Shown here: positions 3,162 to 22,522 of the stretch, piece after piece | How the letters are laid out: each line of letters begins with the position of its first letter | Position numbering within the stretch: the stretch's first letter is position 1 | Source of the DNA: Oscillospiraceae bacterium | Lineage (GTDB): Bacteria; Bacillota; Clostridia; Oscillospirales; Oscillospiraceae | Assembly (NCBI GenBank): GCA_017458885.1 | Contig: JAFSZQ010000046.1 | Span: 1 to 22,522, forward strand | DNA length: 22,522 nt | Direction of reading: 5' to 3' | Program-made: the position numbers and the translations under genes | Notes under the pieces: generated by a model | What the model was told of the DNA's origin: nothing | Database searches by the model: none | Seen by the model: only the letters and a program-made list of their open reading frames with translations

Positions 3162-3222
3162 TTCAGGACGATTCCTGAAACCGTTTCTTCTTTCGCCTTG
3201 CCGAAAGAAGAAATGGTTTCAG
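3162..3222 (-). promoter_or_regulatory. Two overlapping, mutually exclusive hairpins in the tdk leader
   Basis: The large stem pairs 3175-3195 with 3202-3222 (21 positions with one mismatch, or a G-U pair on one strand; loop CCTTGC). A small stem pairs TTCAGGA (3162-3168) with TCCTGAA (3173-3179). They share bases 3175-3179, so both cannot form fully at once. On the minus strand the small stem lies just upstream of the tdk ribosome binding site (3151-3156). A switch or attenuator role is inference; no T-run typical of a terminator follows on the minus strand. Confidence 0.45.
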
Positions 3223-3343
3223 ACTTCCGTAGAAGAAAGGGCGCCTGCCGGCTGTCTCTGTGACGTTTGGGTTTCCGTGTCTAGATTACGCTGTTTGCTC
3301 GTGCGGATTGGCATTTGCTACCCCTTATTCGGCGGAGGGATAT
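3173..3343. repeat. Dispersed hairpin-bearing repeat, copy A (about 170 bp)
   Basis: This segment aligns along its length with 22237-22398 in the same orientation. Shared blocks are TTCCTGA plus a 21-position stem-loop ending GGTTTCAGACTTCC, a weaker middle (TGTGA, GTG), and the nearly identical end ACGCTGTTTGC, CGT, CGG and GCATTTGCTACCCCTTATTCG. The last block contains the mutY stop codon and its last three codons (N-K-G). It encodes no convincing protein. It could be a non-autonomous mobile repeat, a structured RNA or a conserved 3' untranslated region element. Confidence 0.8.
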
Positions 3344-4397
3344 TCAGCAGGTTTTTGGCTTGGGCGGCGTACTTCTTGAATGCCGTGGGGATCGCCAGTT
3401 GCTCAAACTCCGTTGCGTCCACCCATTGAAACTCGGCGTTGTCGCCCGTCACCTCCGCGACGTAGCCCTTCATCTGCCACTCGATGTGCGTGAAGATGTG
3501 CTTCGCCGTGCCGCAGGGCGTAAGGCTCGTCGGCTTTACGCCCCACTGCGCGAGCGTCACGAGCGCGCTCGGCTCGTCGAGGCTGCCCGCCGCGTTCGGG
3601 AACTCCGTCAGCCGCGCCAGCAGCCCCGTGTCGCCGCGGCGGCGGACGGCGACCTTGCCGCCGCGCAGGAGCAGGAACACCGTGCGCTCCTCCGCGCGGC
3701 GCTTTTTCTTCGGCGCGCGCACGGGCAGCACGCCCGTCAGCCCCTCGCGGTACGCCGTGCAAAACGCCCTTGCGGGGCACTCGGCGCACAGCGGCGCGCC
3801 GTTCGGCAGGCACACCGTCGCGCCGAGGTCCATCATCGCCTGGTTCCACGCGCCCGGGCGGGCGCGGTCGATGGACGCCGCCATGTGCTCGCGGAACCGC
3901 CGCCGCGTCCGCGCGTCGGTCACGTCCTCGGCGCAGCCGCAGACGCGCGACGCAACGCGCAGCAGGTTGCCGTCCACCGCCGGCTCCGGCAAACCGTAGT
4001 TGATGCTCGCGATGGCGCTCGCGGTATAGTCGCCGACGCCCGGCAGCGCGCGCAGCGCGTCCATCGTGCGCGGCAGCTCGCCGCCGTATTCGCTGACAAC
4101 GACTTGCGCCGCGCGGTGCAGATTTTTTGCGCGCGAATAGTACCCCAGCCCCTGCCACAATTTATAGAGCCGCTCCTCGGATACCGCCGCGAGCGCGCGC
4201 GCGTCCGGCAGCTCCGCCAGAAAGCGCGCGTAATACGCCAGCACCGCGCCGACGCGCGTCTGCTGGAGCATGATCTCGCTGACCCATGTGCGGTACGGCG
4301 ACGGCTCCTCGCGCCACGGCAGCACGCGGCGGTGCGCGTCGTACCACGCCAGCAGCGGCGCGCGCAGCGCGTCCAAATTGTCCCAATGCTCGTCCAT
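3318..4397 (-). CDS. mutY: A/G-specific adenine DNA glycosylase
   Basis: Removes adenine mispaired with 8-oxoguanine; 359 residues, normal length. Catalytic Glu41 sits in SEIMLQQTRV and catalytic Asp142 in PAVDGNLLRV; the helix-hairpin-helix is at about 118-128 (LPGVGDYTASA). The iron-sulfur cysteines are C196, C204, C207 and C213, spaced x7-x2-x5 rather than the x6-x2-x5 of E. coli. A C-terminal NUDIX-like 8-oxoG recognition domain follows (AKHIFTHIEWQMKGYV). The start ATG at 4397 was chosen because the family N-terminus (LLAWYDAHRRVLPWR) follows at once and a strong promoter places the transcript start within one or two bases of it, so the mRNA may be leaderless. The last codons and the TAG lie inside repeat copy A, which may have replaced the original C-terminus. 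Confidence 0.95.
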   Translation of the reverse strand: MDEHWDNLDALRAPLLAWYDAHRRVLPWREEPSPYRTWVSEIMLQQTRVGAVLAYYARFLAELPDARALAAVSEERLYKLWQGLGYYSRAKNLHRAAQVVVSEYGGELPRTMDALRALPGVGDYTASAIASINYGLPEPAVDGNLLRVASRVCGCAEDVTDARTRRRFREHMAASIDRARPGAWNQAMMDLGATVCLPNGAPLCAECPARAFCTAYREGLTGVLPVRAPKKKRRAEERTVFLLLRGGKVAVRRRGDTGLLARLTEFPNAAGSLDEPSALVTLAQWGVKPTSLTPCGTAKHIFTHIEWQMKGYVAEVTGDNAEFQWVDATEFEQLAIPTAFKKYAAQAKNLLNIPPPNKG

Positions 4398-4404
4398 TGT
4401 CCGC

Positions 4405-4433
4405 AGTATACCACAACATCTTGGGTTTGCCAA
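4405..4433 (-). promoter_or_regulatory. mutY promoter
   Basis: On the minus strand, TTGGCA (4433-4428), a 17-base spacer and TATACT (4410-4405). The expected start site at about 4398 is next to the mutY ATG at 4397. The -35 box shares five base pairs with the divergent promoter. Confidence 0.75.
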
Positions 4434-4456
4434 GAGGCGGCTTTCTATGCTACAAT
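4427..4456 (+). promoter_or_regulatory. Promoter of the metallo-hydrolase gene
   Basis: TTGCCA (4427-4432), an 18-base spacer and TACAAT (4451-4456), then GGGAG and the ATG at 4486. It is arranged back to back with the mutY promoter. Confidence 0.7.
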
Positions 4457-4485
4457 GACCGTACTCTGTAAAAGGGAGACCGGAT

Positions 4486-5244
4486 ATGACCATCACGTTC
4501 CTCGCCCACAGCGGCTTTTTGGTCGAGTGGGAGCATTTTTACACGCTCTTCGACTGGTGGAAGGGCGCGCTGCCGCCGCTCAAAACGGACAAGCCGCTGC
4601 TCGTCTTCGCGAGCCACGCCCACGAAGACCACTTCGACAAGCACATCTTCGCCCTGCCCGAGACCTATCCCCTGACGCGCTACGTCCTCTCCCACGACAT
4701 CCGCCTCGCCGCGCGCCGCTGGGAGAAGCTCGGCATGACCGAGGAACTCTTTGCCCGCGTCACGTCGATGCGCGCGGACAGCGTGTTCGCGACCGAGGCG
4801 GGCGGCGCGGCGCTGACCGTCCGCACCGTCAAGTCCACCGACATCGGCGTGGCGTTCCTGCTCTCCGCCGAGGGGAAGCTCGTCTACCACGCGGGCGACC
4901 TCAACTGGTGGCACTGGACGGACGAGGGCAAGCAGTACTGCGACAACATGGCGGAGAGCTATCGCCGCGCGATCGCCAAGCTCGCGGGCGCCGTGCGCGA
5001 CGAGGCGGCGGACTGCGGCTGCGCGCCGATGCTCGACGTCGCGATGGCGCCGCTCGACCCGCGCCTCGGCGACGCCTACGACAAGGGCGTCGCGTACTTG
5101 ATGGAGCAGATCCCCGTCAAGCGGCTGTTCCCGATGCACGTCTGGGAGAAGTTCGACTGGATCGACCGCTATCGCCGCGAGCATCCCGCCGACGCGGAGC
5201 GGATCGCGCCCATCCGCGCGGACGGGGAGACGTTCCCGATATGA
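4486..5244 (+). CDS. Metallo-beta-lactamase-fold hydrolase
   Basis: A 252-residue cytosolic protein of the MBL superfamily. The metal-binding signature appears as S-H44-A-H46-E-D48-H49 (HxHxDH). Later ligand candidates are the Asp in YHAGDLNWWHW and the His in FPMHVWEKF near the C-terminus. The layout resembles the UPF0173-type stand-alone hydrolases rather than beta-lactamases: no signal peptide, a short core and a C-terminal MHxW segment. The substrate is unknown. GGGAG lies about 10 bases before the ATG, and a sigma-A-like promoter sits at 4427-4456. It is monocistronic, with an AT-rich 148-base gap and no clear terminator before the next gene. Confidence 0.85.
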   Translation: MTITFLAHSGFLVEWEHFYTLFDWWKGALPPLKTDKPLLVFASHAHEDHFDKHIFALPETYPLTRYVLSHDIRLAARRWEKLGMTEELFARVTSMRADSVFATEAGGAALTVRTVKSTDIGVAFLLSAEGKLVYHAGDLNWWHWTDEGKQYCDNMAESYRRAIAKLAGAVRDEAADCGCAPMLDVAMAPLDPRLGDAYDKGVAYLMEQIPVKRLFPMHVWEKFDWIDRYRREHPADAERIAPIRADGETFPI

Positions 5245-20421: not shown

Positions 20422-20438
20422 GCAACTAACCAAATAAA

Positions 20439-20605
20439 GTCTTGATAGAGGCGCGGCTGACAAGAGTAGCTCCGGCGGACGACAGGAAATCGTGGGGCGA
20501 AAGGGGATGCCGCCGAGGGGCGACGCGGGTTCCTGACCGCATCGCTGCCGGGCCGTCGGGGAATACCCGCCGGACTGTCGCCGAGAGGCGGAGAGCTGTC
20601 ATGAC
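20439..20605 (+). ncRNA. Lysine riboswitch (L-box) aptamer
   Basis: The conserved core of the L-box is readable in order: GATAGAGGCGCG (20444-20455), AAGAGTAGC (20462-20470), GGGGCGAAAGGGGATGCCGCCGA (about 20494-20516), GCTGCCGGGCCG (20546-20557) and CTGTC near the 3' end. P1 forms between GTCTTGATAG (20439-20448) and CTGTCATGAC (20596-20605). The order matches the B. subtilis lysC leader. Lysine binding would stabilise P1. The downstream gene is an NhaC-superfamily transporter, a known partner class for L-boxes. Confidence 0.92.
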
Positions 20606-20634
20606 CGCACGGGGCGCTTGCGTCCTTTCTGTTC

Positions 20635-20666
20635 AGTCATGATGGAAACATCATGACTTCTTTTTT
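20635..20666 (+). terminator. Riboswitch-controlled intrinsic terminator
   Basis: AGTCATGATG (20635-20644), GNRA-type loop GAAA, CATCATGACT (20649-20658), then TCTTTTTT. The left arm can instead pair with the P1 3' strand GTCATGAC (20598-20605), which is self-complementary, giving an antiterminator when lysine is low. Confidence 0.88.
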
Positions 20667-20694
20667 GGAAAAACACAGAAAGGTCGTGTCAACT

Positions 20695-22206
20695 ATGTTT
20701 GGACAAACCCTCGTATCCCTGCTGCCTCCGATCATCGCCATTGGACTGGCGCTGATCACGAAGGAGGTCTACTCCTCGCTGTTCATCGGCATCCTCGCCG
20801 GCGGGCTGATGTATTCGCACTTCAGCTTTGCCGGAACGATGGAGCACGTCTTCGTCGACGGGATGATCGGCTCGCTCTCCGACGGGTGGAACGTCGGCAT
20901 CCTGCTGTTCCTCGTCATTCTCGGCGCGATGGTCATGCTGATGAACCGCGCCGGTGGGAGCGCCGCGTTCGGGCGCTGGGCGGCGGCGCACGTCAAGAGC
21001 CGCCGCGGCGCGGAGCTGGCGACCATCGCGCTGGGCGTGCTGATCTTCATTGACGACTACTTCAACTGCCTGACCGTCGGCTCGGTCATGAGCCCGCTCG
21101 CGGAGCGCCACGGCGTCACGCGCGCCAAGCTCGCGTACCTCATCGACGCGACGGCGGCGCCGATCTGCATCATCGCGCCGATCTCGTCCTGGGCTGCGGC
21201 GGTGACGGGCTTCGTGGACGGCGTGAACGGGCTCGACCTGTTCATCCGCGCGATCCCCTACAACTTCTACGCGGTGGCGACGCTCGTGATGCTCGTCACG
21301 CTCGCGGCGGGGCAGTTCGACTACGGCCCCATGCGCGCGGTGGAGATGGCGGAGCGGCTGCAGCACCCGCGCCGCGCGAGCATCACCGGCGCGGAAGACC
21401 TGCCGAACCCGCCCGTGCGCGACAACGGCAAGGTCATCCATCTCGTGCTGCCGATCCTCGTGCTGATCGTCTCCTGCGTCGTCGGCATGATCTACACCGG
21501 CTATCAAAACGGCGCGGACAGCTTTGTGGACGCGTTTGCGAACTCTGACGCCTCCGTGGGTCTCGTGTACGGCTCCGCCGCGGCGCTGGTCATCACGATC
21601 GTGTTCTATCTCTGCACGCGCGCGCTGACGTTCAGCGAGTGCATGAACGCCATTCCCGAGGGCTTCAAGGCGATGGTGCCCGCGATTTTGGTGCTGACCT
21701 TTGCGTGGACGCTCAAGGCGATGACCGACTCGCTCGGCGCGGCGGAGAACGTCGCGGCGCTGGTGAACTCCGCCGCGCACGGCGGCGCGATCATGAGCCT
21801 GCTGCCCGCGCTGGTGTTCGTCGTCGGCGGCTTCCTCGCGTTCGCGACCGGCACGAGCTGGGGCACGTTCGGCATCCTGATCCCGATCGTGGTGGATGTG
21901 TTCGGCGCGAACATGGGCAACGAGCTGATGGTCATTTCGATCTCCGCCTGCATGGCGGGCGCGGTGCTCGGCGACCACTGCTCCCCGATCTCGGACACGA
22001 CGATCATGGCGAGCGCGGGCGCGCAGTGCAACCACGTCCAGCACGTCTCGACGCAGCTCCCCTACGCGCTGACGGCCGCGGGCGTGTCGCTGGTGTGCTA
22101 CGTCGTCGCGGGCTTTGTGCGGAGCTGGTTCGTCTGCCTGCCGCTGTCCGTCGTGCTGATGGTGGTCACGCTGTTGGTCGTGCGCGCGGCGGAGAAGCGT
22201 TCCTGA
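20695..22206 (+). CDS. lysW: NhaC-superfamily transporter, predicted lysine transporter (LysW-like)
   Basis: A 503-residue membrane protein with about 11-12 hydrophobic segments. NhaC-superfamily features include FIDDYFNCLTVGSVMSPL, DATAAPICIIAPISSWAAAVTGF, FATGTSWGTFGILIPI and the C-terminal GDHCSPISDTTIMASAG. The superfamily contains Na+/H+ antiporters and amino-acid transporters. Control by a lysine riboswitch points to lysine import, the role proposed for LysW-type genes under L-boxes by comparative genomics; transport of lysine by this protein is inference. The start ATG at 20695 was chosen because an earlier in-frame ATG (20653) lies inside the terminator hairpin; only a weak AAAGG precedes the chosen start. 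The TGA stop lies in the first bases of the hairpin repeat that follows. Confidence 0.88.
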   Translation: MFGQTLVSLLPPIIAIGLALITKEVYSSLFIGILAGGLMYSHFSFAGTMEHVFVDGMIGSLSDGWNVGILLFLVILGAMVMLMNRAGGSAAFGRWAAAHVKSRRGAELATIALGVLIFIDDYFNCLTVGSVMSPLAERHGVTRAKLAYLIDATAAPICIIAPISSWAAAVTGFVDGVNGLDLFIRAIPYNFYAVATLVMLVTLAAGQFDYGPMRAVEMAERLQHPRRASITGAEDLPNPPVRDNGKVIHLVLPILVLIVSCVVGMIYTGYQNGADSFVDAFANSDASVGLVYGSAAALVITIVFYLCTRALTFSECMNAIPEGFKAMVPAILVLTFAWTLKAMTDSLGAAENVAALVNSAAHGGAIMSLLPALVFVVGGFLAFATGTSWGTFGILIPIVVDVFGANMGNELMVISISACMAGAVLGDHCSPISDTTIMASAGAQCNHVQHVSTQLPYALTAAGVSLVCYVVAGFVRSWFVCLPLSVVLMVVTLLVVRAAEKRS

Positions 22207-22400
22207 AACTGCTTTTCTCTTGCGAAAGAGAACGGTTCCTGACACCATTTTTTCTCTTTTCTTGAAAGAGAAAAAACGGTTTCAGACTTCCAAAAAAGAG
22301 AAAACGCTTTTGGGCGGCATTTCTTGTGATTTTAGGCTATCGTGCCTACACCACGCTGTTTGCCCGTACGGGTCAGCATTTGCTACCCCTTATTCGACGT
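22203..22400. repeat. Dispersed hairpin-bearing repeat, copy B, with a duplicated leading hairpin
   Basis: The main stem pairs 22239-22259 with 22265-22285 (21 positions, two mismatches, loop TCTTG), corresponding to the copy A stem. Downstream conserved blocks are AGACTTCC (22284-22291), ACGCTGTTTGC (22353-22363) and GCATTTGCTACCCCTTATTCG (22376-22396). A shorter related hairpin with the same start TTCCTGAAAC lies at 22200-22240 and overlaps the lysW stop codon; it may act as the lysW terminator. No convincing coding sequence runs through it. Confidence 0.8.
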
Positions 22401-22522
22401 TGTTGTAAAACGAAGAGACACAACGCCGCGCTGGTATCCCAAAGAGCGGCAGCGGACCGAAGACGCACCGTCAAATCGTCTCACGGGAAACAGCGCAAAT
22501 AAGACGCAAAAAGGACGCCAAC
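22401..22522. other. Unassigned tail of the window
   Basis: No coding region, RNA family or promoter was recognised. The only structure seen is a small inverted repeat CGTTGT/ACAACG (about 22397-22424). The stretch may be more of the repeat region or the leader of a gene beyond the window. Confidence 0.4.

Follow-up and report, generated by a model that had tools for sequence, protein, structure and literature searches.

The window, by which we mean the whole stretch of DNA analysed, is the entire contig C152 (22,522 bases) of G000, the 0.92-Mb genome of an uncultured gut bacterium assembled in 154 contigs and 64% complete. It contains a mutY-like ORF on the minus strand (3318-4496), a 517-aa antiporter-like ORF (20653-22206) with a lysine riboswitch (Rfam RF00168, 75.3 bits) at 20438-20606 just upstream, and two copies of a repeat on the same strand, copy A at 3173-3343 and copy B at 22237-22400. 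The mutY-like ORF has its stop codon inside the tail block of copy A (3288..3331), and the antiporter-like ORF ends beside copy B. Reading both copies confirmed the positions and shared orientation given by the first-pass annotation, as well as the arm sequences it quoted, which differ between A and B while each copy keeps its stem, and the near-identical far block (80% match over 69 nt, 3266-3334 against 22331-22399). Folded as DNA, the hairpin of copy A (3175-3222) reached -20.2 kcal/mol (z -8.45) and that of copy B (22239-22285) -13.7 kcal/mol (z -5.08), and for each of them 0/200 dinucleotide shuffles folded as well. The annotation had rightly noticed the two covarying arms of the hairpin and had missed a third covarying tract, which lies just inside each hairpin. 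The parts of the two copies are as follows.

3175..3182, plus strand: copy A, 5' side of the lower stem (CTGAAACC), pairing with 3215-3222 (sequence, fold and covariation)
3184..3195, plus strand: copy A, pyrimidine arm Y of the upper stem (sequence, DNA fold)
3202..3213, plus strand: copy A, purine arm R of the upper stem (sequence, DNA fold)
3215..3222, plus strand: copy A, 3' side of the lower stem (GGTTTCAG) (sequence, DNA fold)
3223..3230, plus strand: copy A, linker (ACTTCCGT) (sequence, comparison of ends)
3231..3239, plus strand: copy A, third tract, a mirror of R (comparison of ends, mirror scoring)
3288..3331, plus strand: copy A, conserved tail block, belonging to the body of longer elements (alignment of copies)
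22203..22238, plus strand: outer partial hairpin adjoining copy B, possibly the remnant of an older end (sequence; 7-bp stem)
22239..22246, plus strand: copy B, 5' side of the lower stem (CTGACACC), pairing with 22278-22285 (sequence, fold)
22248..22259, plus strand: copy B, pyrimidine arm Y (sequence, DNA fold)
22265..22276, plus strand: copy B, purine arm R (sequence, DNA fold)
22278..22285, plus strand: copy B, 3' side of the lower stem (sequence, DNA fold)
22286..22291, plus strand: copy B, linker (ACTTCC) (sequence, comparison of ends)
22292..22303, plus strand: copy B, third tract, an exact 12-nt mirror of R (sequence, mirror scoring)
22353..22396, plus strand: copy B, conserved tail block (alignment of copies)
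22429..22495, plus strand: copy B, body module CGCTGG...CAGCG, which recurs between paired ends elsewhere (contig end soon after)

Where lower and upper stem meet there is often a mismatch of wobble type (G.T or A.C), as at 3183/3214 and 22247/22277 and in several genera; these mismatches did not point to one functional strand. Rfam returned only the lysine riboswitch and a tRNA in the window, both away from the copies, and nothing at the gathering score in 16 related loci; a known RNA family was accordingly rejected.

Copy number, architecture and distribution

A BLAST search with copy A gave 55 matches in G000, several of which are hairpins matching themselves on their own reverse strand; this number, like the covariation of the stems described below, goes further than chance would explain. 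The repeat is real, but the unit of about 170 bp proposed for it is not the natural one: of the 18 contigs for which a match is listed, 14 have a plus copy followed a few hundred bases later by a minus copy, and these are two hairpin ends facing each other. Eleven such places were read and have hairpin ends around a mosaic body, within which CGCTGG...CAGCG and other modules found beyond the tail of copy B recur, and the two ends of one element mostly carry different tracts. The conserved ACGCTGTTTGC...CCCCTTATTCG block is likewise a piece of a longer element's body; copy A is a single end only, while copy B reaches the end of the contig. A further repeated module, CAAAACCGCAGGTTTTGGCGG...TTTTTGGTGACTTTT...GTCACTCCGCCCGCAGGCGG, was seen inside or beside single-ended copies (L168 4559+, L172 1201-, L177 1201+ and L159). 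Half hairpins of older ends also flank newer elements, at L129 (G000:C7) and at window positions 22203-22238, and look as if new copies had entered or replaced older ones.

Among 40 genomes compared by BLAST, 10 including G000 gave matches, all of them in one genus, and across these relatives it is the hairpin end that is conserved. A covariance model was built and run on the relatives, where it found ends in 13 of the 18 genomes of the genus (one match each in G008, G010 and G016); in a sample of the family, under strict filters, it matched 13/250 genomes and 7/106 genera. Scanning the genomes of named species for an exact pattern gave 30 stretches, 28 of them in MAGs labelled Oscillospiraceae, Ruminococcaceae or Clostridia, several of whose titles mention rumen or abomasum; the other two, in unrelated bacteria, are probably due to chance. 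No match to the repeat was found in plasmid and phage collections and no exact match in viral contigs, and a phage or plasmid origin was rejected on this basis. In related elements of another genus, at L240-L259 (G109 and G237), a conserved hairpin-rich sequence lies about 100 nt outside the triplex-like hairpin.

Covariation of the third tract

An alignment of 41 ends gave a common layout of lower stem, Y, loop, R, lower stem, linker and purine tract. At 10 of the 19 predicted pairs both sides have changed with pairing kept, and secondary-structure prediction captures these two arms only and not the third tract. The latter is R read backwards, a mirror and not a complement, such that R GAAAGGAAGAAA is accompanied by the tract AGAAGGAAAG, and R AAAGAGAAAAAA by the tract AAAAAAGAGAAA. 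Three tracts thus lie on one strand and the third mirrors the purine tract, which is the arrangement of an intrastrand triplex (PIT/BoxC-like) element.

The mirror relation was scored in two ways. With the model, 269 matches, including reverse-strand and partial ones, were found in 97 fetched regions plus the window, and the best 150 were aligned; 134 could be parsed (the 16 dropped were 11 reverse-strand matches and 5 genuine ends that were short or had unusual spellings), 132 were scored, and these collapsed to 52 distinct ends. With no offset allowed, a scoring that disfavours a direct copy, the mean match was 0.862 for the mirror, 0.552 for the direct copy and 0.679 for within-class shuffles, and none of 5000 such shuffles reached the observed mirror match, although some of these ends violate the rule. 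When the third tract was allowed anywhere within 34 nt, in 136 ends from the genus and 12 hand-chosen from other genera (144/148 scored, 136 distinct), the mirror scored 9.18/10 and the direct copy 8.06; for the genus by itself (132/136 scored, 124 distinct) the values were 9.16/10 and 7.98. Descent and recombination link the ends to one another, so the shuffle counts are not to be taken as probabilities; a better guide to independence is the number of tract types, about 16 by our count, the 31 R ten-mers including some that are shifts of one type. Since the third tract enters the covariance model as sequence, the model prefers ends that carry purines at that place, but it is blind to the mirror relation.

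One could object that the third tract is purine sequence of low complexity resembling R by chance, or a direct copy of it, with no triplex under selection. A/G-rich tracts do make for a high chance match, shuffled downstream segments already scoring a mean of 7.64/10 in the offset test, and several tracts are mirror-symmetric; yet the observed 9.18 was reached by 0/1000 shuffles, and the asymmetric tracts favour the mirror. In the 51 distinct genus ends with a mirror-asymmetric R, the mirror fitted better than the direct copy in 46, worse in 1 and equally in 4, and among 56 distinct asymmetric ends with other genera included there were 24 perfect mirrors and no perfect direct copy. We consider this explanation improbable. 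The match is also not simply one of pairing between the two ends of an element, since across 42 facing pairs (84 ends) the third tract of an end fitted its own R better than the partner's tract did in 59 cases, worse in 7 and equally in 18 (52, 6 and 12 in a 35-pair subset). Within the genus, mirror covariation is firm.

The three-tract layout extends to six further genera. We read 44 ends in other genera, and these have different lower stems and linkers (including CCAGGACC, CCAAACCC, GCGAAACC, CTAACAACC, CGAAAATC and CTGAGAGGCC) but are laid out alike; in G109, a 13-nt tract is by eye a mirror of the entire R. In the 12 chosen ends the mirror fitted better than the direct copy in 4, equally in 7 and worse in 1, a weak preference attributable to tracts that are nearly mirror-symmetric, and the ends from other genera speak for the layout more strongly than for the mirror rule.

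Filled and empty sites

Three intergenic sites were compared among congeners. At mutY-tdk, 16 genomes with tdk were compared: G000 carries copy A and G014 a different copy in the opposite orientation, and no end was seen in the 560 nt read in each of the other 14. Copy A is flanked on both sides by CTGAATA, a possible target duplication; a check of 28 pairs, and of nine pairs from G109, gave no consistent one. At infB-rbfA the element is present in G000 only, the other 17 of 18 genomes being empty within the stretch read (470 nt in five genomes, 150 nt in the rest), and within that stretch 14 of these 17 have a GC-rich terminator-like hairpin. The right flank in G000 reads CGCCCTTTT and resembles the far half of the congeners' hairpin. 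An outer GGGARCG motif was at first taken to belong to the element, but the infB-rbfA site suggests that part of it may be target hairpin. Stems of at least 5 near the ends numbered 38/135 in the nearest stretch and 31/135, 15/135 and 15/135 farther out.

At prs-pth, 16 genomes divided into 7 with an end-like hairpin, 5 with a terminator-like hairpin, 1 with neither and 3 that were unresolved. In the seven congeners the hairpin lies 35 to 42 nt past the start of the aligned prs end and the flanks can be aligned, which suggests one old insertion. In three of these (G004, G009 and G014), which carry two different tracts, the mirror fit is 8 or 9 of 9; in G002 the mirror and direct fits are equal (8), in G006 the mirror fit is 6 against a direct fit of 7, and G001 (L315; 3 mirror, 3 direct) and G007 (L318; 6 and 5) have kept the stem with no clear third tract. 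Replacement of a hairpin by the insertion thus fits two sites, infB-rbfA and prs-pth, and does not fit mutY-tdk. Taken together, the empty sites support mobility of the element.

That the ends at infB-rbfA and prs-pth occupy the places of terminator-like hairpins in congeners raises the possibility that the triplex is made in RNA and that the element is chiefly a mobile terminator or RNA-stability element, in which the 3' side of a transcript, bearing the pyrimidine form with third tract, pyrimidine arm and purine arm, would end or stabilise that transcript. It is in line with this that, in the account of Holder et al. (PMC4666352), intrastrand triplexes of the pyrimidine type occur in RNA and those of the purine type cannot. 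The motif is, however, present on both strands by construction, a terminator scan found 1 site near copy A against a shuffle mean of 1.1, and wobble pairs favour no single strand (plus in 8, minus in 11 and mixed in 23 of 42 pairs), a result on which the inference of one functional strand was dropped. We regard a role in RNA as rather unlikely.

Cargo and the search for a helper enzyme

Seven longer elements of 0.6 to 1.2 kb were read, most with small ORFs (HTH proteins, a 188-aa protein and others) and none with a transposase. Scanning of eight cargo ORFs gave HTH domains in 2, a match below the cut-off in 1 and nothing in 5, and the idea of an autonomous element among these longer copies was therefore abandoned. 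Longer elements with small genes were noted at L149, L140, L142, L195 and L208, and by eye the short proteins of L149 and L208 are alike, as are those of L142 and L195. With multiple copies, inverted ends and no transposase inside among the eight ORFs scanned, the element shares these features with MITEs.

Facing hairpins, intergenic location, many copies and a mosaic arrangement would also be expected of a REP/BIME-type repeat (REPIN) mobilised by a RAYT, that is, a Y1 tyrosine transposase. The Pfam domain Y1_Tnp was nonetheless detected in just one of the 18 genus genomes (G014, where it is partial). It was not detected in G002, G004 and G006, which are rich in elements, nor in the incomplete G000, and we consider mobilisation of this kind very improbable. 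DUF772, which we take to be an IS1182-type transposase, occurs in 10/18 genus genomes, including the element-free G012, G013, G015 and G017, and was not found in the element-bearing G001, G003, G007, G009 and G000, all incomplete genomes. No element end was found near 10 DUF772 loci (of the 25 matches listed) or near the one Y1 locus, and on these grounds DUF772 was rejected as the helper. The two transposase families tried, Y1 and DUF772, accordingly yielded no parent or helper with the same ends.

Discussion

Selection on structure, as put forward in the first-pass annotation, is supported by the many copies and their covarying stems, and its suggestion of a non-autonomous mobile repeat by the number of copies, the filled and empty sites and the elements read, which have no transposase. 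Covariation between the arms of a palindrome can by itself come from template-switch correction, and it is hence the mirror tract that carries the argument for selection; we know of no copying process that reverses polarity without complementing. A triple helix, as described by Holder et al. (PMC4666352), needs precisely a mirror repeat of a purine tract beside the hairpin containing that tract, and the mirror covariation likely reflects such a structure.

We propose that a MITE-like element, modular and non-autonomous, has spread among intergenic sites of Oscillospiraceae, and that the repeat is one of its ends. The hairpin would form in single-stranded DNA or in a cruciform, and the third tract would fold back onto it, giving an intrastrand triple helix with G.G-C and A.A-T triads on the top strand (class II of Holder et al.) or C+.G-C and T.A-T triads on the bottom strand (class IV, also possible in RNA). 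If what selection maintains is the three-stranded shape, and not a fixed sequence, the sequence may change as long as the three positions change together. The shape would most likely be recognised by an enzyme supplied in trans, or would protect the end. The copies, their facing ends, the mirror covariation within single ends and the filled and empty sites are observations; from them we infer triplex formation, a trans-acting enzyme and DNA as the acting form, and a MITE-like element whose ends are selected to form an intrastrand triplex, read in trans or protective, is in our judgement the probable explanation. The more specific proposal, that mobile elements of Oscillospiraceae have ends which are recognised by their three-stranded shape, and that selection keeps this triplex through concerted change of three tracts while the sequence drifts, is put forward tentatively, and the triple helix might serve transposition.

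The role of DNA triple helices in cells is a long-standing question that has mostly been argued from single sequences. In these genomes one structure exists in many evolved versions, from which a three-way rule can be deduced, and this provides a rare evolutionary hint that such a helix matters in living cells. Each natural version could be tested with short oligonucleotides. If the proposal is true, covariation would back a DNA triplex that occurs in nature, and there would be a transposition system that goes by the shape of a triplex and not by sequence; and if shape guides mobility, it would constitute a new way for an enzyme to locate the ends of an element. Searches of an open-access library, in which many journals are missing, gave no report of triplex-like element ends varied in step.

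Several known systems share features with the element. As in the stem-loop-replacing transposition described for IS1272 (PMC5678879), an end takes the place of a terminator-like hairpin at infB-rbfA and prs-pth; the likeness concerns these two sites only, no such hairpin is seen in congeners at mutY-tdk, and the element has no transposase gene. Facing palindromes in a mosaic arrangement are shared with REP, BIME and REPIN sequences, whereas the units here are larger and the Y1 transposase is confined to one of 18 genomes. In being short, multi-copy and intergenic, with inverted ends and no transposase in the copies read, the element resembles bacterial MITEs, from which it differs in that neither a parent element nor a consistent target duplication was found, and in that each end consists of a hairpin plus a third tract, with tracts that mostly differ between the two ends.

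The element is also like BoxC (TM_ECO), a PIT element shown to form a triplex in vitro, for which Holder et al. (2015, PMC4666352) describe 23 highly similar copies in E. coli and report no association with mobile elements. Both are interspersed intergenic repeats in which one strand carries the pyrimidine, purine and third tracts, ordered as in class II. In the element described here, a lower stem and linker separate R from the third tract by more than the loops of 1-6 nt given for the search of Holder et al. Whereas BoxC, as described there, is G/C-rich with near-identical copies, the tracts here are A/T-rich and exist in many versions; what differs from BoxC is that the structure lies at both ends of larger elements and that its three tracts have varied in step.
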